Source: Hufsiella ginkgonis (GTDB taxonomy: Bacteria; Bacteroidota; Bacteroidia; Sphingobacteriales; Sphingobacteriaceae). From it: 64,000 nt of DNA. This document shows, piece by piece, positions 23,815 through 44,900 of this stretch. Each line of letters starts with the position of its first letter. The stretch's first letter is position 1. The stretch is from positions 1 to 64,000 of the forward strand of contig NZ_WVHS01000004.1 of the NCBI RefSeq assembly GCF_009834915.1. Direction: 5' to 3'. The notes under the pieces were generated by a model. It did no database searches and was not told the DNA's origin. It saw nothing but the letters and a program-made list of their open reading frames with translations. The position numbers and the translations under genes are program-made.

Positions 23815-26800
23815 ATGCTGTTCGAACTGAATGATTATGTTAGGCTTTATTGGGTAGCCTATTATCTGGTGCGCGAAGAGTTCTTTCCCGGCGATAAGTG
23901 GATTACTTTTTTTCTTGATAAATCGCCTAATCTGTGGGCAAGTGACGTTCCCGGAAAGCAGATAAGTATTGGGAAAATGTTGTTTGGGAAGGCAATAAAG
24001 GAGATTTACCTAAACTTAACCTACTATAGCGTAAGAAAAACCAACATCATTGAAATAGATGATATTTTCTTAGTAGCTGTTTTTAATAAAATCGGCTGTG
24101 TTATATCCATTGAGCAGCGCCAGGAACAAGGATTAACTATCGATCAAGTACCAAAAGCGCAGCTTCGGCTGTTCAATGAAAAATATGATTTCTTTTTAAA
24201 ACAGTATCCGGATATAGCAAAAGCTACTCATTCAAGTCTCAAAAAAATACACGCTAAAATAGAAGAAGCAAAACAGACAAGTCACGTTAAAAGCCACTTA
24301 GAGCATAAAGAGAACCCGACAAACTTCGAAGAAAGCACCCAGCCTAAAACTCAAAGCTTTCCAATTCTTTTAAATTTAATACCACAGCTACATGATAAAG
24401 TTATTGGCAGGGAAGACGATTTAGTGCATTTGCAGAACACTATCTCTACTGCTGAAAGAATTGTAGTTCTCAACGGGCTTGGTGGTATTGGCAAGACAAC
24501 GTTAGCCAAGGAGTTCCTGCATACCAATAAATATCATTACAGGCACATCGCTTGGGTGTCCATAACGGCATCTGATAGGGAGGATCTCCAAGAAAGCATG
24601 GATAATTTTGCCTCAGCGTTTGCTCAAGATGTGGTATTGGTCGAAGAAGGATTGAAACTTCAATTTACAACTGAAAAGCCTGTTATTGAGAAGTTTAAAA
24701 TCATAATGTATGCCTTGCAAAATCTTTCAGGACCGAATTTATTGGTGATAGATAATGCAGAAGGTAGCATTAAGAACTTTAGGGAGACACTGCCGATCCC
24801 ACCTCATTGGCACATCTTAGTTACCAGCAGAGGCAATTTATCTGGCTTTGATCCAGTCATTTTAGATAATCTAAAACAAGAGGCTGCGGTACGTCTCTTT
24901 AAAACATGGTATCCTAACGAATCCGATACCAACGAGATTTATGCTCTTTTAGAGGAAATTGACTATCACACGTTAACAATAGAATTGCTTGCAAAAACGC
25001 TCACATCCTCCTTGGGCTTTTTGAGCATCAGAGATTTAATTGAAAGGCTAAAAAGCAAGAATCTGAATGATGAATTATTACAAGATTCAATATCGACAGC
25101 ACACGGTACGCAAGAAACGACACTGCTCAATCATCTGTTAATAACATTCAAGTTAGTTAAGCTAACTCAAAGGGAATTATACGTTCTCGAATGCTTTTAT
25201 TTTTTACCGCCTGATTACTATAGCGCGGAATGGATTGCTACGCTGTTCGACGTGGAGAATGAAGTTTTATTTAAAAACGCATTCAAGTCGTTACACCAAA
25301 AGGGTTGGCTGCAATTTGATAGCAAAAAATTCCATATGCACAGATTGATACAGCAGGTCATTTATTATGCCTTGTCGCCGGGACTAGAAGTTGTAGAGCC
25401 ATATATTAAGCTATTATCCGCAAATACCTGGCACTTTAATAACAGTGAAATCCATTCCAAGGCAGTTTATATCCCCTATGCTGCATTTTTAATTTCCCAA
25501 TTATCCGAGTATTGGAAAGATAGTCGCGAATTAACGAGTCTTTGCATTAACCTATCAATACTTTATAGTCAATCGACAGACGATGCTAAGGCAGAGCCGA
25601 TTGTCGATAGACTGATTGATATATATCTTAAGCGGCTTCAAACTCAAGATGTGAGTGATGAATACTATTCACGCGATAAACATGCACTCGCTATTTGTTG
25701 TAAACTTAAAGCATCCATTGCCAAGCATCATGGAAGACACAACGATGTATGGCATTTTCTCAATAAAGCTTTGAATATCTGGAGAGATATCAAAGGAATT
25801 CCACAGGAGATTTATTTAATAAGTTATCAAAACGCATTAACCTTTCTTGGCGATTGTTGCTGGGACATTAATGGCACCGATGACGCTGGTCCGGCATATT
25901 TGGAGAGCCTACGTTTGCGAGAAAAACTTTATGAAATCGATCAAACCAAGTATTTACACGAATTATTGTCTGGACTTCTATCAGTAGCTCGTTTCTTTCT
26001 CGGTTGTGGTAAGTATAATGATGCAAAAGCGTATGCTGATCGGGTTGAAAAAAAGGCGCGCTTTGCTATAGAAAAGGATATATTATATGGTGTTGAACTT
26101 GCTGACGGATTATCTCTTTCCGCTCAAATTCATTTTGAGATTACGAAAGATATTGAAGCGGTTATCCCAAAGTTCCAAGAGAGCATTGATCTTTATCGCT
26201 CTTTTAGCAAACTGAACGAAGACGTTTACGCGTATAGATTCACCGAGCTTTATTGCGCCTTTGGCAATAAGTTAGTGGAGACTGAGTGTTTTGATTTAGC
26301 TGAAATTCAGTATGAAAATGCAAGAGTACTCGTTGCTAAACTATATGATAAGGACCGGCTTGGTTTCAGATTCAATTACGCACTTATTTCAGGGTGCTTA
26401 GCTAGAACACTAACCGCTCAACGAAAGGATGGTTTAAACCATTTTGATCTTGCACAGAGCCTTATAAGTGAAATTATTGAGGATGGCCAGAACCTGCAAA
26501 TGCTATTTTACGAAAACAATGACGGTATAGCTGTGCATTACATGCAAAAGGAGGATTATCAAACTGCCGCTGACTATTTTGAAAAAAGTAACGAATTTTA
26601 TTATGTTAACGTATTTCAAGGAGATTGCAAATTCAAGCTTATCAGTAACCTATATATGCTTGCGAGCTGTTATACTTCCCTTAATGAATTCGAACTTGCA
26701 GCTGCAAGGCAAGCAGATCATTACAATTTCTGCACAGACATGTTTGAGCAGGGATCAATGGCTGGTGCCGTATTGTTGGATTCCGCAGTTTTACTTACCC

Positions 26801-26994
26801 GAAACTATTCCGAGACCGGCGAGCGTAAGCTAAAAGAAGAGATGATCGTGAAGTCTTTTATCATTATGCATTTCTACGCAGAGTTAACCCCTGAAGATGA
26901 GCTGTATGTTACCCTAAGAGATGAGTTGTCAGCTTTGTACGGACCGGGGTTTGAGGATTGGTTTGATAGTGAAGTAGCGCCTAGTTTGGTTTAA
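23815..26994 (+). CDS. NB-ARC/STAND NTPase with TPR-like repeats (NLR-like candidate immune sensor)
   Basis: The product is 1059 residues. Residues 1-190 form an N-terminal domain I do not recognise. The NB-ARC ATPase follows: Walker A GLGGIGKTTLA (about 221-231), Walker B LLVIDNAEG (about 308-316), the sensor motif ILVTSRGN (about 334-341), then winged-helix and ARC helices with MHRLIQQV (the MHD-like position, about 510). Residues about 570-1050 are helical repeats resembling TPRs. This is the architecture of signal-transducing STAND ATPases; several prokaryotic NLR-like members are known anti-phage sensors in which repeats sense and the N-terminal domain acts. Its location at the end of a mobilizable island next to another defence cargo supports that role. 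The ligand and effector are unknown. Confidence 0.82.
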   Translation: MLFELNDYVRLYWVAYYLVREEFFPGDKWITFFLDKSPNLWASDVPGKQISIGKMLFGKAIKEIYLNLTYYSVRKTNIIEIDDIFLVAVFNKIGCVISIEQRQEQGLTIDQVPKAQLRLFNEKYDFFLKQYPDIAKATHSSLKKIHAKIEEAKQTSHVKSHLEHKENPTNFEESTQPKTQSFPILLNLIPQLHDKVIGREDDLVHLQNTISTAERIVVLNGLGGIGKTTLAKEFLHTNKYHYRHIAWVSITASDREDLQESMDNFASAFAQDVVLVEEGLKLQFTTEKPVIEKFKIIMYALQNLSGPNLLVIDNAEGSIKNFRETLPIPPHWHILVTSRGNLSGFDPVILDNLKQEAAVRLFKTWYPNESDTNEIYALLEEIDYHTLTIELLAKTLTSSLGFLSIRDLIERLKSKNLNDELLQDSISTAHGTQETTLLNHLLITFKLVKLTQRELYVLECFYFLPPDYYSAEWIATLFDVENEVLFKNAFKSLHQKGWLQFDSKKFHMHRLIQQVIYYALSPGLEVVEPYIKLLSANTWHFNNSEIHSKAVYIPYAAFLISQLSEYWKDSRELTSLCINLSILYSQSTDDAKAEPIVDRLIDIYLKRLQTQDVSDEYYSRDKHALAICCKLKASIAKHHGRHNDVWHFLNKALNIWRDIKGIPQEIYLISYQNALTFLGDCCWDINGTDDAGPAYLESLRLREKLYEIDQTKYLHELLSGLLSVARFFLGCGKYNDAKAYADRVEKKARFAIEKDILYGVELADGLSLSAQIHFEITKDIEAVIPKFQESIDLYRSFSKLNEDVYAYRFTELYCAFGNKLVETECFDLAEIQYENARVLVAKLYDKDRLGFRFNYALISGCLARTLTAQRKDGLNHFDLAQSLISEIIEDGQNLQMLFYENNDGIAVHYMQKEDYQTAADYFEKSNEFYYVNVFQGDCKFKLISNLYMLASCYTSLNEFELAAARQADHYNFCTDMFEQGSMAGAVLLDSAVLLTRNYSETGERKLKEEMIVKSFIIMHFYAELTPEDELYVTLRDELSALYGPGFEDWFDSEVAPSLV

Positions 26995-29630: not shown

Positions 29631-29687
29631 CATGCTCCACAAATCAAAAAAGCCCCTTAACGGGGTTTTTTTGATTTGTGGAGCATG
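29631..29687. terminator. Long palindromic bidirectional terminator
   Basis: A 26-bp near-perfect stem (one G-T pair) with a 5-base loop. The centre is a classic GCCCC-TTAAC-GGGG flanked by A and T runs, and the outer arms CATGCTCCACAAATC and GATTTGTGGAGCATG extend the stem well beyond the T-run. It lies 33 bases after the TPR gene stop. The following 320 bases to 30008 hold only a short relic-like frame, YWLWHQPFIDTYPPF..., with no start site. Confidence 0.85.
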
Positions 29688-30008: not shown

Positions 30009-31187
30009 TTGCAAATGCACAGGTTCAAGGGAACAGCTTTCTTCATACATATAGCCGGCTGGCTGTTGTTCCTTACCTTCCCTCTCCTGTTCATGAACAG
30101 CGAACAGGGAAAGAGCAGTTGGTTATTGGTGGCGTCGCCCTACTACTGGTTGTTTTGCTTAACATACGTGGTGATGTTCTATATCAATACCTGGTACCTC
30201 ATCCCAAGATTTGTATTCAAAAAGAAATTTGTACAGTATGGGGTACTGCTGCTCATCCTTTTTAGTTGTGTTTATTACCTGCAGCCTTACACTAACCTGC
30301 TGGGACATAACAAAACGGTGCTCTCCAAGCTGGGCCCGGCGCAGGGCAGTATAGGCGGTATTCCCGAAATACGGCCCGGTTTTGATACCAATGCCACTGC
30401 CAACCTGCCTTTTGGGCCATTGCCGCACCAGGACCTGCGCATGCAGGACCCTAACCTCAAAAAGCCGAACGGTATCCTGGCCATCCACCAGTCAGACAAC
30501 ATCGACCTGGTAAGCCTCTTTATTTTTATGCTGATCATGGGTATCAGCTTTGCTACCACCACCGTGCAGCAATGGCAAAGTACCGAGCAAAAAGTGGTAA
30601 AAGCCGAGGCCGAAAAGGTGAATGCCGAACTGTCGTTCCTTAAGGCGCAAATTAACCCGCATTTCCTGTTCAACACGCTGAATAATATTTATACTCTATC
30701 GGTGATGGACAGCCGGAATACGTCAGACAGCATCATGAAATTGTCGAACATTATGCGGTACGTTACGGACGATGTGACCAACGACCTGGTGCGCCTGCAA
30801 AGCGAGATAGATTGTATCGAAGACTACATCGACCTGCAGCGCCTCCGTTTGGGCGACAGCGCCGACGTACAGTTCACCCTGGAGGGAAAGGTGTTAAACC
30901 AACGCATCGGGCCGCTGATCCTGATGACGTTCATCGAGAACGCCTTCAAATACGGTGTGAGCAAAAAACAAAAGACCGTGATCAGTATTTCCATAAAAGT
31001 GATGGGCGACCAGGTGGACTTTTACTGCCGGAACCGCGTTTTCGAACAGCAGAACAGGCTTGAACGTACCGGTATCGGCATAAAAAATACCAAACAGCGA
31101 CTGGAATATTTATACCCCGGCAAATACCAGCTAACTATCAATAACGAAAACCAGTTATTTACCGTAAGACTTTGCGTGGATTGTTAA
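30009..31187 (+). CDS. LytS/YehU-type sensor histidine kinase
   Basis: The product is 392 residues. Four hydrophobic helices occupy about residues 10-110 and 163-185 (HIAGWLLFLTFPLLF, WLLVASPYYWLFCLTYVVMFY). The HisK domain follows, with His218 in INPHFLFNTLNNIYTLS, then a GHKL ATPase with LILMTFIENAFKYGV (N box) and RTGIGIKNTKQRLEYLYPG (G box). It should phosphorylate the LytTR regulator encoded 18 bases downstream. It lies at the head of the PqqD/ATP-grasp/decarboxylase gene run, so the pair probably controls that cluster. The extracytoplasmic loop about residues 113-160 is Pro/Gly-rich and unlike known sensor domains. Confidence 0.92.
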   Translation: MQMHRFKGTAFFIHIAGWLLFLTFPLLFMNSEQGKSSWLLVASPYYWLFCLTYVVMFYINTWYLIPRFVFKKKFVQYGVLLLILFSCVYYLQPYTNLLGHNKTVLSKLGPAQGSIGGIPEIRPGFDTNATANLPFGPLPHQDLRMQDPNLKKPNGILAIHQSDNIDLVSLFIFMLIMGISFATTTVQQWQSTEQKVVKAEAEKVNAELSFLKAQINPHFLFNTLNNIYTLSVMDSRNTSDSIMKLSNIMRYVTDDVTNDLVRLQSEIDCIEDYIDLQRLRLGDSADVQFTLEGKVLNQRIGPLILMTFIENAFKYGVSKKQKTVISISIKVMGDQVDFYCRNRVFEQQNRLERTGIGIKNTKQRLEYLYPGKYQLTINNENQLFTVRLCVDC

Positions 31188-31205
31188 CCAATACAAACCT
31201 CTATT

Positions 31206-31910
31206 ATGCGATTAAAATGTATAGTCATTGATGATGAGCCGCTGGCGCTCCAGCTCATCCGCAACTATGTATCGAAATTCCCGGCACTCGAACTGGTAAA
31301 AACCTTCGAAGACGCCATCTCGGGAGGCGAGTACCTGGCTAAACACGATATCGACCTGCTGTTCGTCGACGTGAATATGCCCGATATTACCGGGGTAGAC
31401 CTGGTGCGCTCGCTCGAAAAAAAGCCGATCATCATCTTTACCACCGCCTACAAGAACTACGCGTTCGAAAGCTATGAGCTCCAGGCGCTGGATTACCTGC
31501 TGAAACCGATCGACCTTAAACGTTTTTCGGCCGCGGTGGAAAAAGCAGTCGACTATTACAAGTACAAAAACCTGCCGGATGAGCCAAGGGAAGATGAAAG
31601 TATTTACGTCTATTCAGAATACCGGATGATCAAGATCCTGCTGAAAGATATCGAATACATCGAAAGCATGGCTGACTATATCATTATCCACCTAGCCGGA
31701 TCAGACAAACCTGTGATGAGCCTGATGACGCTGAAAAAAGTACTCGAAAAGCTCCCGAAAGAGAAGTTCATTCGTGTACACCGCAGCTTCATCGTGTCGG
31801 TAAATAAGATCAGGTCCCTGCATAATCGAAAGATCAGGCTCGAAACCATCGAACTGCCTATCGGCGATGCATATAACGACGTGGTGAACCAATACCTAAA
31901 AAGCAGCTAA
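31206..31910 (+). CDS. LytTR-family response regulator
   Basis: The product is 234 residues. The receiver domain (1-120) has the acidic pair IDDE, phospho-acceptor Asp at about residue 56 (LLFVDVNMPD), Thr in FTTAY and Lys in LLKPID. The LytTR DNA-binding domain (about 130-232) reads IYVYSEYRMIKI, then MADYIIIHL, MTLKKVLEKLP and FIRVHRSFIV. It is the partner of the kinase just upstream. It probably binds promoters within or near this cluster; no LytTR direct repeats were identified. Confidence 0.95.
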   Translation: MRLKCIVIDDEPLALQLIRNYVSKFPALELVKTFEDAISGGEYLAKHDIDLLFVDVNMPDITGVDLVRSLEKKPIIIFTTAYKNYAFESYELQALDYLLKPIDLKRFSAAVEKAVDYYKYKNLPDEPREDESIYVYSEYRMIKILLKDIEYIESMADYIIIHLAGSDKPVMSLMTLKKVLEKLPKEKFIRVHRSFIVSVNKIRSLHNRKIRLETIELPIGDAYNDVVNQYLKSS

Positions 31911-31914
31911 CCCA

Positions 31915-32154
31915 ATGAAACTTAAACCGAACATAGCCACCAGCGAGAACGGGTTCATCTTTAACCCGGCAACCGGCGATTCTTTTATGGCTAACGTAAT
32001 GGCGTCGGAGATCGTGAACCACCTGAAAAAAGAGAAAAGCATCCCCGAGATCCGGCTGCTGCTGCTCGAAAAATACGACGTGGAGCAACAGCAGCTCGAC
32101 CGCGACCTGGACGACCTGCTGCAGCAGCTTAAAGAAGCCAACCTGTTAGACTAA
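31915..32154 (+). CDS. PqqD-like peptide chaperone (RRE-type)
   Basis: A 79-residue protein of PqqD size and pattern: MKLKPNIATSENGFIFNPATG, a beta-hairpin then helices EIVNHLKKEKS, IRLLLLEKYDVEQQQLDRDLDDLLQQL and a terminal ANLLD. PqqD proteins bind leader peptides and present them to modifying enzymes in RiPP pathways. It lies 4 bases after the regulator gene and 7 bases before an ATP-grasp gene, so all are co-translated. The substrate peptide is not obvious; a 22-codon ORF further down the run is one candidate. The PqqD assignment is by pattern, not by search. Confidence 0.72.
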   Translation: MKLKPNIATSENGFIFNPATGDSFMANVMASEIVNHLKKEKSIPEIRLLLLEKYDVEQQQLDRDLDDLLQQLKEANLLD

Positions 32155-32161
32155 CCTTTTC

Positions 32162-33208
32162 ATGAACTCTCCCAAGAAAATCACCATCGCGGTAACAGGC
32201 CTCAATGCCACCGATAGCCCGGGGCCCGGCGTGGCCGTGATCCGGGCCCTGCGCGAGGGCTTTGATCACATTCGCATCATCGGCCTATCGTACGAGGCCC
32301 TGGAACCGGGGCTCTACCTCCATGACCTGGTCGATAAAACCTACCAGATCCCCTACCCATCCGCCGGTGCGAATACGCTGCTGGAGCGCATAACCTATAT
32401 TCACCAGCAGGAAGAACTGGGTGTGCTGATCCCGAACTTCGACGCGGAACTGTATAATTTCATCAGGATCAGCAGCGAGCTGTTGAAACTGGGTATCGCG
32501 ACGTTCCTACCCACCCACCGGCAGCTGGAAGACCGCGACAAACTGAACCTGGACGAATTCGGCCGTAAACACGACCTTAAAGTGCCCGAAAGCCTGGTGA
32601 TCCACAAAGAAGCCGGGCTAAAAAAAGCAGCCGAACAGCTCGACTATCCCATAGTGGTAAAAGGCCGGTATTACGATGCCTATATCGCCCAGAACGAGCA
32701 CGAAGCATCGAAAGCATTTCAAAGGCTTAACGCGAAATGGGGCTTGCCCGTCATCATACAGAAATTTATCAAAGGTACCGAGATCAATATTGCGGCGCTC
32801 GGCGACGGCAAGGGCGGGACCATCAGCATCGTGCCTATGCGCAAGCTCACCATTACCGATAAGGGAAAAGCCTGGGCGGGCATTACCCTCGAAGATGAAA
32901 GCCTGCTGCAGCTCGCCCGTCACTTTAGCGAAGTAACGCACTGGCGCGGAGGGTTCGAACTGGAGGTAATGAAAGACCCCGGCGGCGATCTCTACATTAT
33001 GGAGGTAAATCCCCGCTTTCCGGCCTGGATCTACCTCACCGCCGCAGCGGGCCAAAACCAACCGGCGGCGCTTGCAAAAATGGCCATGGGCGAAGAAGTT
33101 GCTCCTTTTGACACCTATGCCGTGGGCAAAATGTTTATTCGCTACGCGTGGGACCATGTAACGGATGTGTCTGAGTTCCAGCAGATCTCGGCATTCGGGG
33201 AACTTTGA
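32162..33208 (+). CDS. ATP-grasp ligase
   Basis: A 348-residue carboxylate-amine ligase of the ATP-grasp fold, CarB/PylC-like. The N-terminal Rossmann-type part (ITIAVTGLNATDSPGPGVAVIRAL) is followed by the ATP-grasp core: YPIVVKGRYYDAYIA (Lys of the lid), VIIQKFIKGTEINIAALGD, then FELEVMKDPGGDLYIMEVNPRFPAW with the E...N metal ligands. It would ATP-activate a carboxylate and join it to an amine. Encoded directly after a PqqD-like protein and before a PLP decarboxylase, it may make an amide on a peptide or small diamine. The substrate is unknown. Confidence 0.87.
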   Translation: MNSPKKITIAVTGLNATDSPGPGVAVIRALREGFDHIRIIGLSYEALEPGLYLHDLVDKTYQIPYPSAGANTLLERITYIHQQEELGVLIPNFDAELYNFIRISSELLKLGIATFLPTHRQLEDRDKLNLDEFGRKHDLKVPESLVIHKEAGLKKAAEQLDYPIVVKGRYYDAYIAQNEHEASKAFQRLNAKWGLPVIIQKFIKGTEINIAALGDGKGGTISIVPMRKLTITDKGKAWAGITLEDESLLQLARHFSEVTHWRGGFELEVMKDPGGDLYIMEVNPRFPAWIYLTAAAGQNQPAALAKMAMGEEVAPFDTYAVGKMFIRYAWDHVTDVSEFQQISAFGEL

Positions 33209-33286
33209 ATGCAGCGGCAACATCTTCACTGCCTGCGGCGAAGGTTTCTGGCACACCGTATAGTTTAACGAGTGGTAAAAAATAAT

Positions 33287-33355
33287 ATGAACAGCAGTAA
33301 AATTATCGTCCCCTTCCCGGAGGGGATGCCGCAGGGCGGGAGGGCTCAAAAATGA
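33287..33355 (+). CDS. Possible 22-residue peptide ORF overlapping the decarboxylase start
   Basis: ATG 33287 to TGA 33353-33355 encodes a peptide starting MNSSKIIVPFPEG and ending GGRAQK. The TGA overlaps the next start as ATGA, a coupling arrangement used elsewhere in this cluster. It is in the only sizeable gap (143 bases) of the gene run. It could be a leader peptide for translational coupling or a substrate of the PqqD/ATP-grasp pair. There is no clear ribosome-binding site, and an ORF this short may be chance. Confidence 0.35.
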   Translation: MNSSKIIVPFPEGMPQGGRAQK

Positions 33356-34707
33356 TCACTATGGAAAAATTAAAATACGAGCGCCCCGTGATCCGCAAAA
33401 TGAACACGGGCCTGATGAACAAATTCGGTACCCGTACAGAGTTCGAGCCCGTAAAAGACATCGACGGCGTACCGGTAAAAAGCCTTATCCGGCAATTCGG
33501 GTCCCCTTTGTTCGTGCTTTCGGAAAAACGGATCAGGCGTAATTACCAATCGGCGGTACGCGCGTTCAACACCCGTTACCCCAAGGTACAGTTCGCGTGG
33601 AGCTACAAAACCAACTACATCAACGCGGTATGCAAGGTGTTTCACCAGGAAGGAAGCTGGGCCGAAGTGGTTTCGGGCTTCGAGTACCGCAAAGCCCTGG
33701 GCAACGGCGTTCCCGGCGAGCACATAATTTTTAACGGGCCCGATAAAAAGCCCGGCGACCTGTTGCTGGCCGTCGAAAACAACTCGCTGATCCACATCGA
33801 TCATTTTGACGAGCTATTCCTGCTGCTGAGCCTCTGCAAACCGCTCAACAGGAAACCGAGAGTAGCCATCCGGGTGAACATGGACACCGGCGTATACCCG
33901 CTCTGGGACCGCTTCGGGTTCAACTACGAGAACGGCCAGGCATGGACCGCCATCACCCGCATCATGGAATCGGGCAAACTGAACCTGGTTGGATTGCATT
34001 GCCACATCGGTACGTTTATGCTTTCCACTTCCGCTTACGCGGTGGCCGCGCGAAAATTATGCGACCTGGCCTCCCGCTGCAAAGAGCAGCTCCAGGTGGC
34101 GGTGCAATACCTTGACCTGGGCGGTGGTTTTCCTTCCACCAACACGTTAAAGGGATCGTACCTGCCGGGGATAGACACCGTGCCTTCGGTTGACGATTTC
34201 GCGGAAGTGATCACCACCACCATCCTCGACTACGGTTTCCGGCCAGACGAGCTCCCGCTGCTGATCCTGGAAAGCGGGCGCGTGCTGATCGATGATGCGG
34301 GTTACCTGCTTGGCACCGTGATCGCCAACAAACGCCTCAGCGACGGCCGTCGCGCCACCATCCTCGATTTTGGGGTGAACACGCTCTTTACTTCTTTCTG
34401 GTATGAGCATAAGATCAGCCCCGCCCAGGATTTTACGCACCATACCGAAGACATGGTGCTGTACGGTCCCCTGTGTATGAACATAGACGTGGTGCGCGAA
34501 AACATCAACCTGCCACTGCTCGAGCCCGGCGACCACGTGGTGACCCATAAAGTGGGCGCTTACAATATGACACAATGGATGCAGTTCATCAGCATGCGCC
34601 CGGCGGTAGTGATGATCGACCAGGGCGGCCAGCCGCATGTGATACGCAAAGCGGAAACGCTCGACTACCTGCAGGTACCTGAATCCATGCCCGACCACCT
34701 GAAATAG
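33352..34707 (+). CDS. Fold-III PLP-dependent decarboxylase (LysA/ODC-like)
   Basis: The product is 451 residues. The alanine-racemase/ornithine-decarboxylase fold is evident: PLP-binding Lys about residue 86 in WSYKTNY, HCHIG (about 220), GGGFPS (about 262), ESGRVLIDDAGYLLG, and the C-terminal active-site GPLCMNID, where diaminopimelate decarboxylases have GPxCESxD. The N-terminal 50 residues (including FGTRTEFEPVKDIDGVPVK) extend beyond LysA. It should decarboxylate a basic amino acid or a conjugate of one. Its operon partners suggest a dedicated substrate rather than lysine synthesis. The next gene begins three bases after its stop codon. Confidence 0.87.
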   Translation: MITMEKLKYERPVIRKMNTGLMNKFGTRTEFEPVKDIDGVPVKSLIRQFGSPLFVLSEKRIRRNYQSAVRAFNTRYPKVQFAWSYKTNYINAVCKVFHQEGSWAEVVSGFEYRKALGNGVPGEHIIFNGPDKKPGDLLLAVENNSLIHIDHFDELFLLLSLCKPLNRKPRVAIRVNMDTGVYPLWDRFGFNYENGQAWTAITRIMESGKLNLVGLHCHIGTFMLSTSAYAVAARKLCDLASRCKEQLQVAVQYLDLGGGFPSTNTLKGSYLPGIDTVPSVDDFAEVITTTILDYGFRPDELPLLILESGRVLIDDAGYLLGTVIANKRLSDGRRATILDFGVNTLFTSFWYEHKISPAQDFTHHTEDMVLYGPLCMNIDVVRENINLPLLEPGDHVVTHKVGAYNMTQWMQFISMRPAVVMIDQGGQPHVIRKAETLDYLQVPESMPDHLK

Positions 34708-34710
34708 CTT

Positions 34711-36858
34711 ATGAAGAAGCACGCTGAATATTACCTGCAAGCCACGCTGAACAGCTACGCTATCGTATTTTTTTCGCAGAATAAGACGCTGGCGGCGATC
34801 ATGCTGGTGGTGTCGTTCTTCAATTTCCATGCGGGCATCTCCGCATTGCTGGCGGTAGTGGCGTCGCTGGTAATGGTCACCGTATCCGGGTTCTCCAAAG
34901 AAACCGCGAAAACCGGCCTCTACACTTTCAACTCCATGCTGCTGGGGATCGGGTTCGGCACATTCTTTAACTTTAACCAGGCGTACTGGATCTGGCTGGC
35001 TACCGCACTTCTTACCTGTATTTTCCTGAGCGTCACGCTTATCTCGCTGCTTGGCAAGTATAACCTGCCGGTATTGTCCATCCCGTTCATCCTCACCTTC
35101 TGGCTGGTGTTGACGGGCGCCAACAGTCCCATCAACCTCGGCCTCGGGCAGCAGACGAGCTCGCTGTTGTTCGAATGGCTAACCGGCGGGCTCGGCCCCA
35201 TTACCGGGCTCTCCAGTTACCTGAATGGCTCCGGGCTGCCTGGCTATATCGGGCTTTTCTTTCGCTCGGTAAGCTCCGTATTGTTCCAGAACAATATCCT
35301 GGCGGGCATTTTACTAAGCATCGGCCTGCTCATCCACTCGCGGATCGGGTTCAGCTTGCTGGTTACCGGGTTCATTACATCCTGCCTGTTCAACCATTAC
35401 CTCAGGATGTACCCCGACGGCATCAGCAATTACCACCTCGGTGCTAATTTTATGATGGTGGCGGCATCAATCGGCGGGTTCTTCCTGGTCCCCTCCTGGC
35501 GGTCGTATATTTGGGCCGTATTTACCGTTCCGGTGAGCTTCCTGATGGTAAGCGCGCTGGGCAATATTCTCGGCGCCTTCGACCTGCCGGTATTTTCCAT
35601 GCCATTTTGTATCGTCACCCTGGGCTTACTGTATTTTTTCCTGCTGAGGGTGCATGCGGTAAAGCTGCAGCTTACTCCTTACCAGTTCTATTCGCCTGAA
35701 AAGAACCTTTACCAGTTCCTCAACGTGCGGGAGCGTCTCCAGGACCTGCAATATGTAAAACTTACCCTCCCATTTATGGGGAGCTGGGCGGTTTCGCAGG
35801 GGTATGATGGCGGTATCACCCACAAGGGCGATTGGGGAAAGGCGCTCGATTTCGTGATCAGGGATGCAGATGGAAAGACCTACCGGTCGGGGGGAACGCT
35901 CCCCGAGCACTTTTACTGCTACAACAAGCCTGTGCTGGCCTGCGCCGACGGCACCATCGAGGAAGTGATCAGCTATATAGACGACAACGCGATCGGTCAT
36001 GTGAACATGGTACAGAATTGGGGCAACACCATCATCATCCGCCATGCGCACGGCCTGTACACCAAGATCTCGCACCTTAAAAAGAATTCGGCGAAAGTTA
36101 AACCGGGCGATTTTGTAAAGCGCGGCGACCTGCTGGCACTTTGCGGCAATTCGGGGCGTTCGCCGGAGCCGCACCTCCATTTCCAGGTACAGGCTACTCC
36201 GTATATCGGGGCTAAAACCCTCGAATACCCGTTAGCTGCCTTTACCCGCAATGGCAGCTACGTAAATTTTGGCATCCCTGCCGAGGGAGACCTGCTGCAG
36301 CCGCCCGAATTAAATTACCAGGTTAAGAAAGCGTTCGACTTTAAACCCGGGTACGTAGCGACGGTCAGCTCGGCCGGTACCACAGAGACCTGGGAAGTAT
36401 TTACCGATGCGTACAACCACACTTATTTTTTCTCGAAAGAAACGAATGCGGTGGCTTATTTCATCAATAACGATACGAAGTTCTATTTCACCAACTTCTA
36501 TGGCGATAAAGATTCGCTGCTGTATCTTTTCTACTTATCGGCCTACAGCATCAATTTCAGCGACCACCCGGCTACCGATTTTTACCCGCTTAACCTGGGA
36601 ATTAACCGGGCGGTACTCTGGCTGCAGGATATCGTTTCTCCGTTTTACAGCTTCATTAAACTTAACTACCACAGTCATGCCGAAAGCGGGGCAAACGGCC
36701 CGACCATCAACACCACGGCCGTGTCGGTGGTCGGCAGCCATAACCAGGCATTCCTTGCGGCGCAGATCGGCATAGAAGACAATCGCCTGGCAGTGGTAGG
36801 GATAACGTTCAAAAACCGGTCAATACAACTACAATGGCAATCAAAAGAGCTCTTTTAA
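34711..36858 (+). CDS. Urea-transporter-like channel fused to an M23 peptidase domain
   Basis: The product is 715 residues. About ten membrane helices fill residues 10-325 and follow the urea-transporter (UT) pattern: GLYTFNSMLLGIGFG, PVLSIPFILTFWLVLTGA, and in the second half HLGANFMMVAASIGGFFLVPSW, GAFDLPVFSMPF. After a linker, an M23/LytM domain (about 365-520) has THKGDWGKALDFV, HAHGLYTKISHL and PHLHFQV, so the zinc ligands look intact. The C-terminal 190 residues are beta-rich and unrecognised. The M23 domain would lie in the periplasm and could cut peptidoglycan or a peptide while the channel passes a small amide or amine. The gene overlaps the outer-membrane protein gene by 25 bases. 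Confidence 0.85.
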   Translation: MKKHAEYYLQATLNSYAIVFFSQNKTLAAIMLVVSFFNFHAGISALLAVVASLVMVTVSGFSKETAKTGLYTFNSMLLGIGFGTFFNFNQAYWIWLATALLTCIFLSVTLISLLGKYNLPVLSIPFILTFWLVLTGANSPINLGLGQQTSSLLFEWLTGGLGPITGLSSYLNGSGLPGYIGLFFRSVSSVLFQNNILAGILLSIGLLIHSRIGFSLLVTGFITSCLFNHYLRMYPDGISNYHLGANFMMVAASIGGFFLVPSWRSYIWAVFTVPVSFLMVSALGNILGAFDLPVFSMPFCIVTLGLLYFFLLRVHAVKLQLTPYQFYSPEKNLYQFLNVRERLQDLQYVKLTLPFMGSWAVSQGYDGGITHKGDWGKALDFVIRDADGKTYRSGGTLPEHFYCYNKPVLACADGTIEEVISYIDDNAIGHVNMVQNWGNTIIIRHAHGLYTKISHLKKNSAKVKPGDFVKRGDLLALCGNSGRSPEPHLHFQVQATPYIGAKTLEYPLAAFTRNGSYVNFGIPAEGDLLQPPELNYQVKKAFDFKPGYVATVSSAGTTETWEVFTDAYNHTYFFSKETNAVAYFINNDTKFYFTNFYGDKDSLLYLFYLSAYSINFSDHPATDFYPLNLGINRAVLWLQDIVSPFYSFIKLNYHSHAESGANGPTINTTAVSVVGSHNQAFLAAQIGIEDNRLAVVGITFKNRSIQLQWQSKELF

Positions 36859-37979
36859 CGTTTGTGCTGCTGGGCGCAGCAGCCCTTACACGGGCGCAGC
36901 AGGCCGATTTCCGGTCGGCCGACAGCGTATCGCTTGCCCGGTACAATTCCGCCAACTGGCGGGGGCTGGTTGACTATGCGCGCACGGCAATTGCCGCCGG
37001 TAACGATTTCCCGGCGCTGCGGCTTCGGGCTGCGTATGCCGAGATGATGCTAGGCCGTTACAGCGCGGCGCTGGTCCAATACCAGGCCGTATTAAAGCAG
37101 GACGACCGCAACCAAACCGCGCTCTATTTCCTGTCGCTCTGCAACAGCAACCTGAACCGCGACAATGAGGCCGATTACTTTGTCCGTAACCTGGAAAACA
37201 AAACGGTCGGGGGCCGCGCGGTCCGTTCCTTTGCCATTACCCGTTTCGGCATCGAAACCAGCGTTAAGATGCCGCAAATAGTTACCCGCGGCAACGCATC
37301 CTACACCCGTGCAGCCTTAAAGAACCGGATCGGGTATTCGTTGTCGCTCGATCAATCGCTGAGTTATTTCGGCCAAGCGTTCCCGGGCGACCGGAACCGG
37401 CAATTCGAATATTATGGCAAGCTGCAATACATGCCGGTGGCCAATCTTTCGCTGCTGGGCGCTTTTCACTACCTCAACAGCTCATTTATTGCCTCCAGCA
37501 CCCAAAATGCGGTAGCCTTCGGCGGTTTGAAATACAGCTTCGCCTATGGCTCCCTGCAGGCCGATGCCAGTACCGGCAAGATCAACGGCGAAAATAGCCG
37601 GCAATACAACGCTGCGCTCTCTTACTACCCCCTAGGGAGCCTGGCGCTGTACGGCGCCAGCCGCGTCTCGCTCCTCACCAGCGGCGATAGGCAAAACACG
37701 GTGTTCAGCCAGTCGGTCGGCTTTAAAACGGGCCGGAAAACCTGGTTCGACGGGCTGGTGGTCATCGGCGACCTTCCCGGCTTCGCGGAAGCAGATAACC
37801 TGTATATTTTTAACTCGATCGACGTCACTACGCTTAAAATCGCCGCCACGGGATATTATCTTATTAATCCGAACGTTACACTTTACCTGAACCTGTTATA
37901 TGAGCAAAAGCTCGAAAACACCAACCAACTAACTTATCGTCAAAACTCAATAACTGCCGGCCTGACATGGAAATTTTAA
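36834..37979 (+). CDS. Outer-membrane beta-barrel protein with N-terminal TPR segment
   Basis: The product is 381 residues with a signal peptide (MAIKRALLTFVLLGAAALTRAQQ). Residues 30-125 form TPR-like helices (PALRLRAAYAEMMLGRYSAAL, TALYFLSLCNSNLN). Residues 145-381 alternate as about 14-16 amphipathic strands and end in Phe (TAGLTWKF), typical of a barrel. It probably provides the outer-membrane element of the pathway encoded upstream. It overlaps both neighbours (25 and 13 bases), which argues for one transcript. Confidence 0.8.
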   Translation: MAIKRALLTFVLLGAAALTRAQQADFRSADSVSLARYNSANWRGLVDYARTAIAAGNDFPALRLRAAYAEMMLGRYSAALVQYQAVLKQDDRNQTALYFLSLCNSNLNRDNEADYFVRNLENKTVGGRAVRSFAITRFGIETSVKMPQIVTRGNASYTRAALKNRIGYSLSLDQSLSYFGQAFPGDRNRQFEYYGKLQYMPVANLSLLGAFHYLNSSFIASSTQNAVAFGGLKYSFAYGSLQADASTGKINGENSRQYNAALSYYPLGSLALYGASRVSLLTSGDRQNTVFSQSVGFKTGRKTWFDGLVVIGDLPGFAEADNLYIFNSIDVTTLKIAATGYYLINPNVTLYLNLLYEQKLENTNQLTYRQNSITAGLTWKF

Positions 37980-38587
37980 AGAAAACATTAATAGTTTCAT
38001 TTATCGTAATGATGCACATGGGTGTGCGGGCGCAAAGTGCATCCGTTTTACAGAAAGCGTTCCAGAACAGCTATAACAACGAAACGAAGAAGAATTACGC
38101 GGCCGCTATCAGCGACATCACCCCGTATTATTCGGAGAACAATTACGAGGTAAACATCCGCCTGGGATGGCTGAATTACCTCAACAAGAATTATACAGCG
38201 TCACAGAATTACTACCAGAGAGCGGTGACCCTGAAGCCCAATTCTATCGAAGCAAGATTCGGTTATGTGAAGCCCCTGTCGCTGCTCACCAACTGGAACA
38301 ACGTGCTCGACCAGTATAATGCCATTCTGAAGATCGACCCCCAAAATACGCAGGCGAACTACTGGGCCGGGGTGATCTACTACAACCGCAAGCAGTACCC
38401 GAATGCCATAAAGCTGTTTTCGAAAGTAGTTGCGTTGTATCCTTTTGATTACGACGGCAACCACATGCTGGGCTGGGCAAACCTGATGACGGGCAAGAAA
38501 GAGGAAGCCAGGGCGCTATTTGAAAAAGCGTTGCTCATAAATCCCGGAGATACCTCGAGCTTAGATGGGTTAAGTAAGAGCAGGTAG
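37967..38587 (+). CDS. Exported TPR protein, last gene of the cluster
   Basis: A 206-residue product with a signal peptide (ILKKTLIVSFIVMMHMGVRAQS) and about four TPR units (YEVNIRLGWLNYLNKNYTAS; IEARFGYVKPLSLL; TQANYWAGVIYYNRKQYP; YDGNHMLGWANLMTGKKEEA). It overlaps the barrel gene by 13 bases. It is likely a periplasmic partner of that barrel, whose own N-terminus is TPR-like. Confidence 0.82.
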   Translation: MEILKKTLIVSFIVMMHMGVRAQSASVLQKAFQNSYNNETKKNYAAAISDITPYYSENNYEVNIRLGWLNYLNKNYTASQNYYQRAVTLKPNSIEARFGYVKPLSLLTNWNNVLDQYNAILKIDPQNTQANYWAGVIYYNRKQYPNAIKLFSKVVALYPFDYDGNHMLGWANLMTGKKEEARALFEKALLINPGDTSSLDGLSKSR

Positions 38588-39807: not shown

Positions 39808-40395
39808 ATGCTCAGTGATCAACTAAAAGAAGACACCAAACAGTCTCATCAAACGCTCGAAAAACGGCTGGTCGCAAAGATCAGGGCCACCAGCACCCCT
39901 GGTGATTATGTACAGTTGCTACGCCTGTTTTGGGGTTTTTATAACGGCCTGGAAGAACGTATTGCGGCAGTAATGCCGGACGCGGAACAGGCGAGCCCGC
40001 ACTTTGCAGGGAGGAAATCGTCACTGATCCTGGATGATATCGCATGTTTCGTAACCGCTCCCCCTTACGTAGTGCCGGCAACCGTCGACCTGCCGGAGAT
40101 CCTCGACCAGCAGCAGGCCATGGGCGCACTATACGTGCTCGAAGGCTCGACCCTGGGTGGCCGGGTAATTGCTAAAATGATCGGCGAAAGATTGGGACTG
40201 AAGGGCAAAAGGGGGTTAACATTTTTTGAAGGTTACGGCGATAAAACCTGGAAGAACTGGGAAGCCTTTAAACGCGCCCTCGACATTCTGCCCCGCAACC
40301 CGGTCGAAACCGACCGGGTGATCGCTTCCGCCAATGAAACATTTTCAAAATTTAACACCTGGGTAGATCGATATGAGTCCGAGAACCAACTATGA
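39808..40395 (+). CDS. bphO: Biliverdin-producing heme oxygenase
   Basis: A 195-residue heme oxygenase of the bacterial phytochrome-linked type. The proximal His is in KQSHQTLEKRLV (about residue 14). The distal helix has GALYVLEGSTLGGRVIAKMI. It opens heme to biliverdin, the chromophore of the phytochrome whose gene overlaps its 3' end by 23 bases. The tight overlap supports stoichiometric co-production. Confidence 0.9.
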   Translation: MLSDQLKEDTKQSHQTLEKRLVAKIRATSTPGDYVQLLRLFWGFYNGLEERIAAVMPDAEQASPHFAGRKSSLILDDIACFVTAPPYVVPATVDLPEILDQQQAMGALYVLEGSTLGGRVIAKMIGERLGLKGKRGLTFFEGYGDKTWKNWEAFKRALDILPRNPVETDRVIASANETFSKFNTWVDRYESENQL

Positions 40396-41887
40396 TTCCA
40401 ACTTTTGCGGGAGCCTTCCGCTGCATCTTACAAACCTGGTTCAATCGTATGGATACCTGCTGGTATTGGACCTGGCCGGTCTCCGCATTGTACAGCTAAG
40501 CGAAAACAGCGAAGAGCTGTTCGGGCAACCGGTAGAAAAAGTAGTCGGCCAGTCATTTTCCGATTACCTGTCTCCCGCCGACATCGCCAACCTGGAGGAG
40601 AAACTCGCTTCCGGCATCCGCGAAAAGATCCCGTTCAATTTCACCTTTGGTGAGTCCAAACGGGAGGTCCTGGCGTTGGTGCACCTGCGCGACGACCATA
40701 TCCTGGCAGAGCTCGAACCCGTTTCTCCAGCGCACAAAAAGGGTTTTACGGAGGTGTATAACGAGATCCGCTATGTCATAGCAGCCATCGATACCGCGGA
40801 AACGCTCGGGCAGGCCAGCGCCATTGCCGTCCGCGAACTTAAAAAGCTATCGGGATTCGACAAGATCATGATGTACCGGTTCGACGAGGAATGGAACGGC
40901 ACCGTGATCGCCGAAATTATGGAAGAGGGTATGGAACCGTATATGGGCCTCACCTTTCCCGCTTCGGATGTGCCCAAACAAGCCCGCGCCCTGTACCTCA
41001 AAAACCCGTACCGCCTGATCCCCGACAGGGAATATACCCCGGTAAGGCTGTACCCGGTGATAAACCCTATTACCCAATCGTTCCTCGACCTTTCTGATTG
41101 CAACTTACGCAGCGTGGCCGCCGTGCACATCGAATACCTCCGTAATATGAAGGTAACCGCCTCGATGTCGACCCGCGTGATCCGCAACGGCGAGCTCTGG
41201 GGCCTCATTTCCTGCCACCACCGCGAACCCAAGTACCTCGACCAGGAATCGTGCTCCATCTTCGAGCTGCTCTCTGATGTGATCTCCTCCCGGATCGACC
41301 ACATTATCCGGAAGGAAGAATACGATTTTTCTAACCGTCTCCAACAAAATTACGCGAAACTGGTTGAATACATTTATTCGGAAAACGACTTCGTAAGCGG
41401 TTTGCTGAAAGATGACGTGAACGTAATGGACTTTTTGGGGGCAGGTGGAGTGGCGATAACGGGCAGAGGCCGGACAGGGACGCTGGGAAACGTGCCCGAT
41501 GCAGAGAAAATAGAAAACCTGGTGCTGTGGCTCCAGGCCAAAGGCATCGACCATGTATACACGGAGGCGAACCTCGCAGCGGTATATGATGGTGCAGCAG
41601 ACTATTCCGCGATCGCCAGCGGGATCATCGTGGTGCCCATCGACGCGGAGGAAGGCCACTACGTGATCGGCTTCAGGCCGGAGGTGATAAAAGATATCAA
41701 CTGGGGCGGAAATCCCAACGAAGCCATCCATTTCGAACCGGGTAAAAACAACTATCACCCCCGTCACTCCTTCCAGGTGTGGCAAGAACGGGTGAAAGAC
41801 ACCGCGATAGCGTGGAGCGAACAGGAGATCAACTGGGCGGAGCGTTTGCGGAATTTTATTTTCGAGTACAACATCAAGCATTCGTAA
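40373..41887 (+). CDS. bphP: Bacteriophytochrome photosensory module (PAS-GAF-PHY) without output domain
   Basis: The product is 504 residues. The biliverdin-attaching Cys is probably Cys12 (NFCGSLPLHL), followed by PAS (about 18-115), GAF (about 125-310, with the FPASDVPKQAR motif) and PHY (about 320-500, with the INWGG tongue motif). The protein stops where a kinase would begin, so the red/far-red signal must be passed to a separate partner. The very large kinase encoded 18 bases downstream and the lone receiver after it are obvious candidates. Confidence 0.92.
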   Translation: MSPRTNYDSNFCGSLPLHLTNLVQSYGYLLVLDLAGLRIVQLSENSEELFGQPVEKVVGQSFSDYLSPADIANLEEKLASGIREKIPFNFTFGESKREVLALVHLRDDHILAELEPVSPAHKKGFTEVYNEIRYVIAAIDTAETLGQASAIAVRELKKLSGFDKIMMYRFDEEWNGTVIAEIMEEGMEPYMGLTFPASDVPKQARALYLKNPYRLIPDREYTPVRLYPVINPITQSFLDLSDCNLRSVAAVHIEYLRNMKVTASMSTRVIRNGELWGLISCHHREPKYLDQESCSIFELLSDVISSRIDHIIRKEEYDFSNRLQQNYAKLVEYIYSENDFVSGLLKDDVNVMDFLGAGGVAITGRGRTGTLGNVPDAEKIENLVLWLQAKGIDHVYTEANLAAVYDGAADYSAIASGIIVVPIDAEEGHYVIGFRPEVIKDINWGGNPNEAIHFEPGKNNYHPRHSFQVWQERVKDTAIAWSEQEINWAERLRNFIFEYNIKHS

Positions 41888-41905
41888 GAACGCTGAACTG
41901 AATTA

Positions 41906-44900
41906 ATGGCTTTAAAGGATCACTATATCATTGCAATCGGGGCTTCCGCAGGCGGGCTGGAGGCTATCCACGAGTTCTTTGATCATATGCCGCAGAACGA
42001 GCACCTTTCGTTCGTGATTATTCAGCACCTATCGCCTGATTATAAAAGCTTACTGGTTGAGCTGGTCTCCAAACACACCCACATGAAGGTGTACGAGGCC
42101 GGCAATGAAATGGTGATCCAGAAAGAATGCATCTACGTGATCCCCAACAACAAAACCATGACGGTACGTAACGGGTCGCTGCAGCTTTCGGAAAAGAAAG
42201 ACAGTAAGTCGCCCAATACCGCCATCGACCTGTTTTTAAACACCCTGGCCGAAGACCGTAAGGACAAGGCGATCGCCATCATCCTCTCGGGAACCGGCAC
42301 TGACGGCACGCGCGGCATTAAGACGATTAAAGAGTGCGAAGGCCTTGTCGTTGTGCAGGACCCCGCTACCGCGAAATTCGACGGCATGCCCCAAAGCGCC
42401 ATCGCTTCCGGCTATGCCGACCTGATCCTCTCCCCGGAGATGATGCCCGAGGAGATCTACAACTACATTAAGGAAACGCCGGTCCATGTGCTCAATGAGG
42501 GCAAGATCGACGAAGATCTGCTGGAAGAGGTGTTCAGGCTGGTATATAACTCGAGTAATTTCGATTTCCAGTTTTACAAAACACCCACCATCATCCGGCG
42601 TATCGGGCGTCGAATGTCGCAGCTGGGTGTTGGGAACCTGGATGGATACGTGCGGTACCTGGGGCAAAACCCACAGGAAGCGCGCCTGCTGAGCAAAGAC
42701 TTCCTGATCAACGTCACACAGTTCTTCCGCGACCGGGTGGCATTTGAGCTGTTGTCGGAGAAAGTGCTTCCCCGCATCCTGGAACACAAGGGACCGCACG
42801 ACCCGTTAAAGGTGTGGATCTGCGCATGCAGTACGGGGGAGGAAGCGTATTCGATGGCCATCCAGATCGACCGGTACCTGGAGCTTACCGGTACAGTGGC
42901 CGACGTAAAGATCTTCGCCACCGACATCGACAGCGCCAACATCGAATATGCTTCGAAAAACGCTTATCCCCTGGCTATTGCGAAGGACATACCACCGGAG
43001 ATCCTCGCCAGGTATTTCATCAGAGAGGGCAAAACCTATTCGCTGATCCCGCATATCCGTAAACAAGTGGTTTTCGCCAGGCATAACGTGATTAAGGACC
43101 CGCCTTTCATAAAAAATGACCTGGTAAGCTGTCGCAACATGCTGATCTACATGAACAGCATCCTGCAGCATAAGGTGCTTTCAACCTTTCACTTCGCGCT
43201 CAAAGACCACGGGTTCCTGTTCCTCGGACCGAGCGAAACAGCCGGCTATATTAAGCAGGGCATCGAGGAGATCGACTCCAAATGGAAAATCTACCGCAAA
43301 ACAGGGGCGATTAAGAACGACCACGAAGTATACAGGAACGTTGACGGCCTGAGAACCGGCGCAGAAAAAAGAACGCCCCCCGCTGCAAAAGAAGGCATTG
43401 CGGCTAAAACGGAGCCCGGTGTAAACGAATTTGTGAAGACGCTGACCGAAGACCTCGGTTACGTGAGCTTTTATATTGATGAGAACTACGAGATCCGGGA
43501 AACCATCGGCGATTTTAACCGCTTTCTTTCGCTTCCCGATAAGAAGCTGAACCTGAACATCCTGAAGATGGTTGCACCCGAATTGTCGGCTGCCTTAACA
43601 CCCGCCATCCGCAAATCCCGGAAGGAAGGAAAAAAGATCCTGCTTAAGAATGTGCGCGTAAAGCAGCGTAATAAGGATATTTTCCTGCAGGTGATCGTAA
43701 AGCAGGTACAGCTTAACAACATTCTAACCACCCTGATCGTGGTGGGTGAAAACGGGCTGATCGCCGGAGGAACGGAACCGGAGGCCCCGGCGATGCGGGA
43801 CCAGGAGCATACCAGTTACGTGTTTGAGCTGGAGTCGGAGCTGACGGAAACACGCCGCAACCTGCAGCTGGCCATCGAAGGCCTGGAAACGACGAACGAG
43901 GAGCTGCAGTCAAGTAACGAGGAACTGCTGTCGGCCAACGAGGAGCTGCAAAGCTCTAACGAGGAGCTGCAGTCGCTGAACGAAGAGCTGCACACGCTCA
44001 ATACCGAGCACCAGCTGAAGATCAAGGAACTGATCGACCTGAACGACGACCTGAACAATTACTTCAGGAGCACGGGCATCGGGCAGGTTTTCCTGGACCC
44101 CAACATGCGGATCAGGAAGTTTAACCCTGCCGCTGCCAGCCTTATCAACCTGATAGACACCGATATCGGCCGGCCGCTTAACCATATTTCGAATAACCTG
44201 CAGTACGAACCGCTGTTCAATGATGCCCGCCAGGTGATCGATACCGGTAAATTGGCCGAAAAAGAGTTGGTGCTTACCGATGGCAACACCGTGATCATGC
44301 GCATAATGCCCTACCTGCGCAAGGACAAAAAGACCGACGGCGCGGTGATCACTTTCGTGGACGTTACCGAAATACATGAGCTGAACAACATCGTAAAGGG
44401 CGTATTCAATGCCAGCCTGAGCGCGATCATGGCGCTGAACGCCGTACACGATGAACAAAACAAGATCGTCGACTTCGCCTGGGTGAGCCTCAATTACGCC
44501 GCCGAAAACCTGCTGGGCAACGGGAATGATTACCTGGCCGGCAAATCACTAAAAAAGCATGCTGCCGATTTCGTGAAACCCTGGGTCTTCGAAAAACTGG
44601 TGAAGGTAGTAGAGTCCGGGAAGCCGCTGCAAACTGAACTTCAGGTCCTATATGAAGAAACGGAACGATGGTTCGAGGTGACGGCCGTAAAAATGAAAGA
44701 GGGGCTGGTGACAACCTTTACCGAGATCACCGCCAGGAAGCTCTCTGACCAGAAGTTAAAAAAGAACTATAATGAACTGATAACCGCGCGCGAAAGCCTC
44801 AAAAAGCTGAACGCGGCACTGGAAGACAAAGTAAAAGAACGCACCCGCGAACTCTCGGAGAACGAAGAGCGGTTCAGGCTCGTATCGCAGGCCACCAATG

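Follow-up and report, generated by a model that had tools for sequence, protein, structure and literature searches.

BtrJ is the ATP-grasp ligase of the butirosin side chain. In the butirosin module (BtrJ, BtrK and the carrier BtrI), an ATP-grasp enzyme is followed by a decarboxylase of the alanine-racemase fold that acts on a conjugated amino acid (BtrK: PMC7857480). FigC, SbnH, AcsE and MccE, like BtrK, are non-polyamine decarboxylases of conjugated amino acids, and FigC, SbnH, MccE and BtrK are placed together with diaminopimelate decarboxylase (DAPDC) and D-ornithine decarboxylase (D-ODC) in the non-polyamine clade, clade 2 (PMC7857480). The fungal E-64 pathway may present a further likeness: its description mentions ribosome-free amide synthesis together with both ATP-grasp and pyridoxal phosphate (PLP) decarboxylase terms (PMC12568646). 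The locus described here, whose chemistry is a variant of such known ligase-decarboxylase pathways, occupies positions 30009-38587 of a 64-kb stretch (64,000 nucleotides, hereafter the window) of the 5.2 Mb assembly of Hufsiella ginkgonis. It consists of eight open reading frames (ORFs) lying head to tail on the same (+) strand, which encode a sensor histidine kinase (HK), a response regulator (RR) of the LytTR type, a PqqD-like protein, an ATP-grasp ligase, a PLP-dependent decarboxylase (DC), a fusion of a urea transporter (UT) fold with an M23 peptidase (UT-M23), an outer-membrane barrel protein with tetratricopeptide repeat (TPR)-like helices, and a TPR protein. We propose, with about an even chance of being right, that this is a conserved Bacteroidota operon which synthesizes and transports a small metabolite of the amide or amine type, using a ligase-decarboxylase pathway, a channel turned to a new use and a pore in the outer membrane.

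In comparison with the butirosin module, the locus lacks both an acyl carrier protein (the PqqD-like protein is found in that place) and aminoglycoside genes, its unit includes membrane and outer-membrane proteins, and the DC resembles FigC more closely than BtrK. No description of this gene composition was found in the literature searched, which supports the first-pass annotation in treating it as undescribed; subscription papers were outside the scope of the search, and Iyer et al. 2009, on amidoligases, may mention parts of it.

The arrangement of the genes is conserved far beyond chance. In an order-level sample of 300 genomes, approximately 36 besides the window carry UT-M23, and the flanks of 35 were read. 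The order PqqD, ATP-grasp, DC, UT-M23, barrel, TPR is retained in all 36 Sphingobacteriaceae loci (window included), the reading frame of the barrel gene runs exactly 13 bases into that of the TPR gene in every one of these (36/36), and HK and RR are close to the core in 32/36. A phylum-level sample of 395 evenly drawn Bacteroidota genomes was searched with profiles of UT-M23, ATP-grasp and DC. The three profiles match the identical 34 of the 395 genomes, at adjacent places, and the single additional UT-M23 match is a stand-alone M23 stretch. Co-occurrence in other genomes, on which the first-pass annotation had made its own proposal depend, thus survives the comparison.

Neighbours were counted in 31 of the 34 phylum loci and in 80 named contigs from Pedobacter, Mucilaginibacter, Chitinophagaceae, Hymenobacter, Paludibacter and others. 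Wherever the neighbour was testable, ATP-grasp was present in 101/105 loci, PqqD in 96/99, UT-M23 in 99/100 and TPR in 85/87. The constant core therefore comprises PqqD, ATP-grasp, DC, UT-M23, barrel and TPR, and the two-component genes are optional: of the 81 loci phylum-wide in which this was testable, only 28 have HK plus RR adjoining the core, so regulation, initially counted as part of the unit, has to be left out of it. The core is reduced to these six genes because the other neighbours observed (a GNAT acetyltransferase, an FG-GAP-like protein and a receiver protein) are optional as well. The unit is present in approximately 9% of the sampled Bacteroidota genomes, many of them from soil and fresh water, and this patchy spread points to an accessory function.

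The strongest support for a single pathway shared by the ATP-grasp and the DC is a natural fusion. A 758-aa protein encoded on the Streptomyces zaomyceticus plasmid NZ_CP108525.1 (L260:8998-11271) joins an ATP-grasp to an alanine-racemase-fold decarboxylase; its ATP-grasp half presents 29% identity and has the KG-x-Y-A, GK-W-G and NPRFPAW motifs in common with the ligase of the locus, and its decarboxylase half shares the CMxxD motif with the DC. Given this fusion, the two enzymes probably act in one pathway, as first suggested. The catalytic residues, with roles assigned by analogy to the respective families, are retained throughout: K127, K167, E268, E281, N283 and R285 of the ATP-grasp are found in 140/140 orthologues, and K86, E307, C375, D379 and Y404 of the DC in 145/145. 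W238 and W289 of the ATP-grasp and M376 and Q408 of the DC are invariant in the same sets. Next to the Streptomyces fusion gene are genes for an unknown protein of 195 aa, for a desaturase and for methyltransferases, a neighbourhood that possibly represents a related pathway of actinobacteria in which channel and PqqD are missing.

Among solved structures, the N-citrylornithine decarboxylase FigC/FslC (7kh2, 244 bits by profile) is the best match to the DC, ahead of DAP decarboxylases and BtrK. The GP-CM--D motif and the W-RFGF loop are common to both enzymes, and in a tree having no rows for L-ODC, BtrK, MccE and SbnH, DAPDC, D-ODC and the host LysA fall on one side of a split supported at 100/99, and the cluster DCs and FigC on the other. 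The structural match is what would favour a siderophore pathway resembling that of rhizoferrin, which we nevertheless consider highly improbable. In FigC, R387, N389 and T330 are proposed as citrate contacts on the basis of docking (PMC7857480). These contacts are not kept in the DC, where they correspond to Q408, M410 and W350, invariant or nearly so, with Q408 and M410 in a conserved TQWMQF stretch. The partner of the decarboxylase is an ATP-grasp here and an NRPS-independent siderophore (NIS) synthetase there. Of the unlabelled genes beside the core, none of a size expected for a TonB receptor is recurrent, although receptors and NIS synthetases were not searched as families.

Lysine biosynthesis was considered as a role for the DC and rejected. 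The host's own LysA is encoded elsewhere in the genome, beside aspartokinase, and reaches 386 bits with NCBIfam TIGR01048 (LysA), over the cut-off, whereas the DC reaches 213 bits, below the cut-off of 297.9. The DAP-recognition motif CESxD is replaced by CMNID in the cluster DCs (CMQID in one), and a THxxISTG-type (STG) loop for the distal carboxylate is present in none of the cluster DCs compared. With NCBIfam NF041039 (FslC/FigC) the DC obtains 204 bits, also below the cut-off (500). Since the residues recognizing citrate and DAP are replaced, the DC probably acts on a conjugated amino acid, and not on citryl-ornithine or DAP.

An RRE-type protein (RiPP recognition element) adjoining an ATP-grasp is likewise found in graspetide and other RRE-bearing clusters for ribosomally synthesized and post-translationally modified peptides (RiPPs). 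The RRE/PqqD domain of such clusters is present here, its PF05402 score lying over the Pfam cut-off (Table 1), and A8, G13, F14, F16, G21 and N27 of PqqD are conserved in at least 131 of 134 orthologues. In a RiPP pathway, PqqD would bind a leader encoded elsewhere, the ATP-grasp and the DC would modify the peptide, and UT-M23 would cut the leader and export the product. The decarboxylase MccE shows that an enzyme of this kind can act on a modified peptide (PMC7857480). Such a pathway is unlikely, however, since neither a precursor nor the expected type of ligase is found. The gap between ATP-grasp and DC varies from -20 to 637 bases among relatives, no ORF is shared in it, and the 22-codon ORF that occupies it in the window is not conserved. 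When 4283 small ORFs of all loci were clustered, no precursor was obtained; the clusters were all of cold-shock proteins, of single-receiver proteins or of families confined to a genus. The ATP-grasp matches none of the graspetide ATP-grasp models and is of another family, its matches being CPSase-like, Ddl-like, RimK-generic (21.8 of 143.4 bits) and other generic models. Finally, no unlabelled gene of exporter size recurs next to the core. The lack of a conserved precursor and the CPSase-like type of the ATP-grasp thus weaken the RiPP reading, and with it the leader-bearing peptide product put forward by the first-pass annotation.

In the AlphaFold2 (AF2) model of UT-M23 (pLDDT 91), residues 1-340 have the UT channel fold (Z 36, root-mean-square deviation 2.1-2.9 A over ~310 residues, model against structures), residues ~345-520 have the M23/LytM fold (Z about 14), and residues ~520-715 form a C-terminal beta-rich region, the fold search not covering residues 520-715. 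Both labels given to this protein are hence correct as folds. The UT domain shares its fold with the SLC14/UT channels (dvUT, UT-B), from which UT-M23 differs by the fused M23 domain and C-terminal region and by altered filter residues. Urea contacts in dvUT include the hydrogen-bonding filter residues Q24 and E187, the latter being replaced in some bona fide UTs (PMC5311045). The Q24 position is I18 in the window protein and Q in 24/70 family members, and the E187 position is S189 in the window protein and E in 0/70. The LPxxT motifs of UTs are LPxxS in UT-M23, and the NCBIfam model urea_trans_yut yields 101 bits, below its cut-off of 274.6. Given the loss of the filter residues, and even considering that E187 varies in true UTs too, the sequence does not support urea conduction; the description as a urea-channel-like protein holds for the fold only.

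The zinc ligands and catalytic histidines of the M23 domain (H371, D380, H455, H488 and H490) are invariant in 70/70 sequences. Together with the M23/LytM fold, this would suit a function in the cell wall, in which M23 would act on periplasmic peptidoglycan while the ligase and the DC would either produce or recycle an altered wall amino acid, e.g., a wall-attached diamine; the nearest stand-alone M23 relatives in the same taxonomic order bear signal peptides, and the DC is distantly related to DAP decarboxylase. The predicted location of the domain argues otherwise. In known UTs, both termini are inside and the loop between the halves is outside (glycosylated in UT-B). Lysine and arginine residues in the UT-M23 family number 9.3 on the side of the C-terminus vs 2.2 on the opposite side. 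UT topology and the positive-inside rule therefore predict a cytoplasmic rather than a periplasmic M23 domain, which places the periplasmic built-in peptidase of the first-pass annotation in doubt. Plasmid-borne M23 domains of Haloplanus and Haloferax are 38-42% identical to that of UT-M23, and as haloarchaea lack murein, M23 domains of this type do not necessarily act on the wall. As the DC also lacks both the CESxD motif and the STG loop, a cell wall function appears rather improbable.

In the AF2 model of the outer-membrane protein (pLDDT 95), TPR-like helices precede a beta-barrel of ~14 strands. Compared with outer-membrane proteins of the YaiO and OmpG types, the protein has OmpG among its best fold matches (TMt 0.65), alongside many other porins, and has no NCBIfam match and no clear Pfam match. 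The barrel of the most distant loci is a shorter protein without the TPR part, mostly encoded 3' of the TPR gene, yet profile comparison assigns these short barrels to the same family as the Sphingobacteriaceae barrel (hhalign 95%, E 2e-8).

In the proposed mechanism, the ATP-grasp would spend ATP to couple an amino acid either with an acid or with a carrier, and the DC would then strip the alpha-carboxylate from the conjugated amino acid, like FigC, SbnH, MccE and BtrK. The PqqD-like protein would hold or present the substrate to these enzymes. The product would cross the inner membrane via the UT-fold channel, at whose mouth M23 would hydrolyse an amide, and the outer membrane via the porin-like barrel, with the TPR modules assisting. 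In Sphingobacteriaceae and some other families, the LytS/LytTR-type pair would control the operon. The ligation and decarboxylation steps are supported by sequence, by the fusion and by co-occurrence; the reaction order, the role of PqqD, the M23 hydrolysis at the channel and export over import are what we infer. It is also conceivable, though doubtful, that UT-M23 is a processing exporter, in which urea selectivity was lost and a cytoplasmic M23 domain sits at the channel entrance and cuts the product loose from a carrier held by PqqD. A single machine ending in a dedicated porin would then synthesize, release and export the product.

Several points weigh against the proposed synthesis and export of a metabolite. 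The FigC branch is very long in the DC tree, so the exact place of FigC is unsure. The evidence on the side of the M23 domain is divided: topology suggests the cytoplasm and the exported stand-alone relatives suggest the outside. Lastly, the closest likeness of the LytTR regulator in a model comparison is BtsR, which controls an uptake system in E. coli, and import is possible for this reason. The barrel and the UT channel, both of passive protein types, would then admit a small amide, which the M23 domain, cytoplasmic by its topology, would hydrolyse and the ATP-grasp and DC would use. However, an ATP-consuming ligase fused to a decarboxylase, as in Streptomyces, looks biosynthetic, and the constant core includes no further enzyme, so we regard import and assimilation as a poor prospect.

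The coordinates of the features are presented in Table 1. The first-pass annotation had counted nine genes. Eight ORFs with the stated domains are indeed present on one strand, whereas the ninth, the 22-codon ORF, is judged not a gene given that relatives share nothing in the gap. The tight packing described for the cluster is as stated, with intergenic distances across the eight genes of 18, 4, 7, 143, 3, -25 and -13 bases, in order. A repeat origin of the ATP-grasp/DC gap was ruled out, as its sequence is single copy in the genome. The start of the HK is more likely ATG 30015 than TTG 30009. The inverted repeat upstream is probably the 5' limit of the operon. No structured RNA was matched in Rfam at gathering score, none of the eight proteins was matched by PADLOC for anti-phage defence, and no ATP-grasp relative is present in viral contigs, by which phage carriage was rejected.

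Table 1. Features of the Hufsiella ginkgonis locus, in window coordinates.
Feature	Position	Strand	Evidence	Status
Sensor histidine kinase, LytS/YehU type	30009..31187	+	His_kinase PF06580, 90.9 bits	accessory
Response regulator with LytTR DNA-binding domain	31206..31910	+	PF00072, 68.6 bits; PF04397, 63.2 bits	accessory
PqqD-like (RRE-type) protein, 79 aa	31915..32154	+	PF05402, 47.5 bits (cut-off 23.4)	core
ATP-grasp ligase, CPSase-like / ATPgrasp_Ter type	32162..33208	+	PF15632, 38.3 bits	core
PLP-dependent alanine-racemase-fold decarboxylase (DC), FigC-like, not LysA	33352..34707	+	PF02784/PF00278	core
UT-M23 fusion	34711..36858	+	PF03253, 161 bits; PF01551, 62.5 bits	core
Outer-membrane protein: signal peptide, TPR-like N-terminal helices, barrel of ~14 strands	36834..37979	+	AF2 model	core
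Exported TPR protein	37967..38587	+	TPR models, up to 72.9 bits	core
22-codon ORF, judged not a gene	33288..33356	+	no shared ORF in gap among relatives; single copy in genome	
Long perfect inverted repeat, 3' of upstream TPR gene	29631..29687		catgctccacaaatcaaaaaagcccc-ttaa-cggggtttttttgatttgtggagcatg, read directly	

Regarding the regulators, the His_kinase domain and the LytTR regulator are in agreement with the LytS/LytTR label, but the five-transmembrane LYT sensor domain of LytS was not found in the HK, where PF06580 is the sole match at E up to 0.01. The optional neighbours vary among lineages. In 22 Chitinophagaceae-type loci, a GNAT acetyltransferase gene lies 27-150 bases 5' of PqqD, in place of the two-component pair (e.g., L170:8012-8509). 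In nine distant loci, a gene 8-166 bases 5' of PqqD encodes a secreted protein of ~280 aa with an FG-GAP-like repeat and a type IX secretion tail (e.g., L149:12770-13621), which could be a substrate or receptor of the system. Many loci of genus g4 (L063, L064, L069 and others) have a single-receiver protein of ~125 aa between RR and PqqD, without an output domain and with the conserved ending KP.DM..LA.R..YLMAS or similar.

Individual loci show further particularities. A CotH-kinase/lamin-tail protein with a type IX tail is inserted between DC and UT-M23 at L196:2305-4566. At L210:6661-8019 and L216:6717-8060, a decarboxylase of the DC clade is found without an adjacent ATP-grasp, as a result of relocated genes or assembly errors. 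Elsewhere in the window, genes for a heme oxygenase-like protein, a bacteriophytochrome-like protein and a large CheB/CheR-PAS-histidine kinase stand in a row at 39808-45997, a probable light-sensing operon judging from the translations only, and a 1059-aa protein at 23815-26994 resembles an NB-ARC/TPR signalling NTPase.

To our knowledge, no named system combines such enzymes with a UT-M23 fusion and with an outer-membrane pore of its own, and we know of no membrane channel for the E-64 pathway. The operon hints at a metabolite that has so far gone unrecognised and that has a dedicated route across the two membranes. A function would also be assigned to a urea-channel fold that is not selective for urea, and another to an M23 peptidase possibly active intracellularly, which would bear on the annotation of channels and peptidases.

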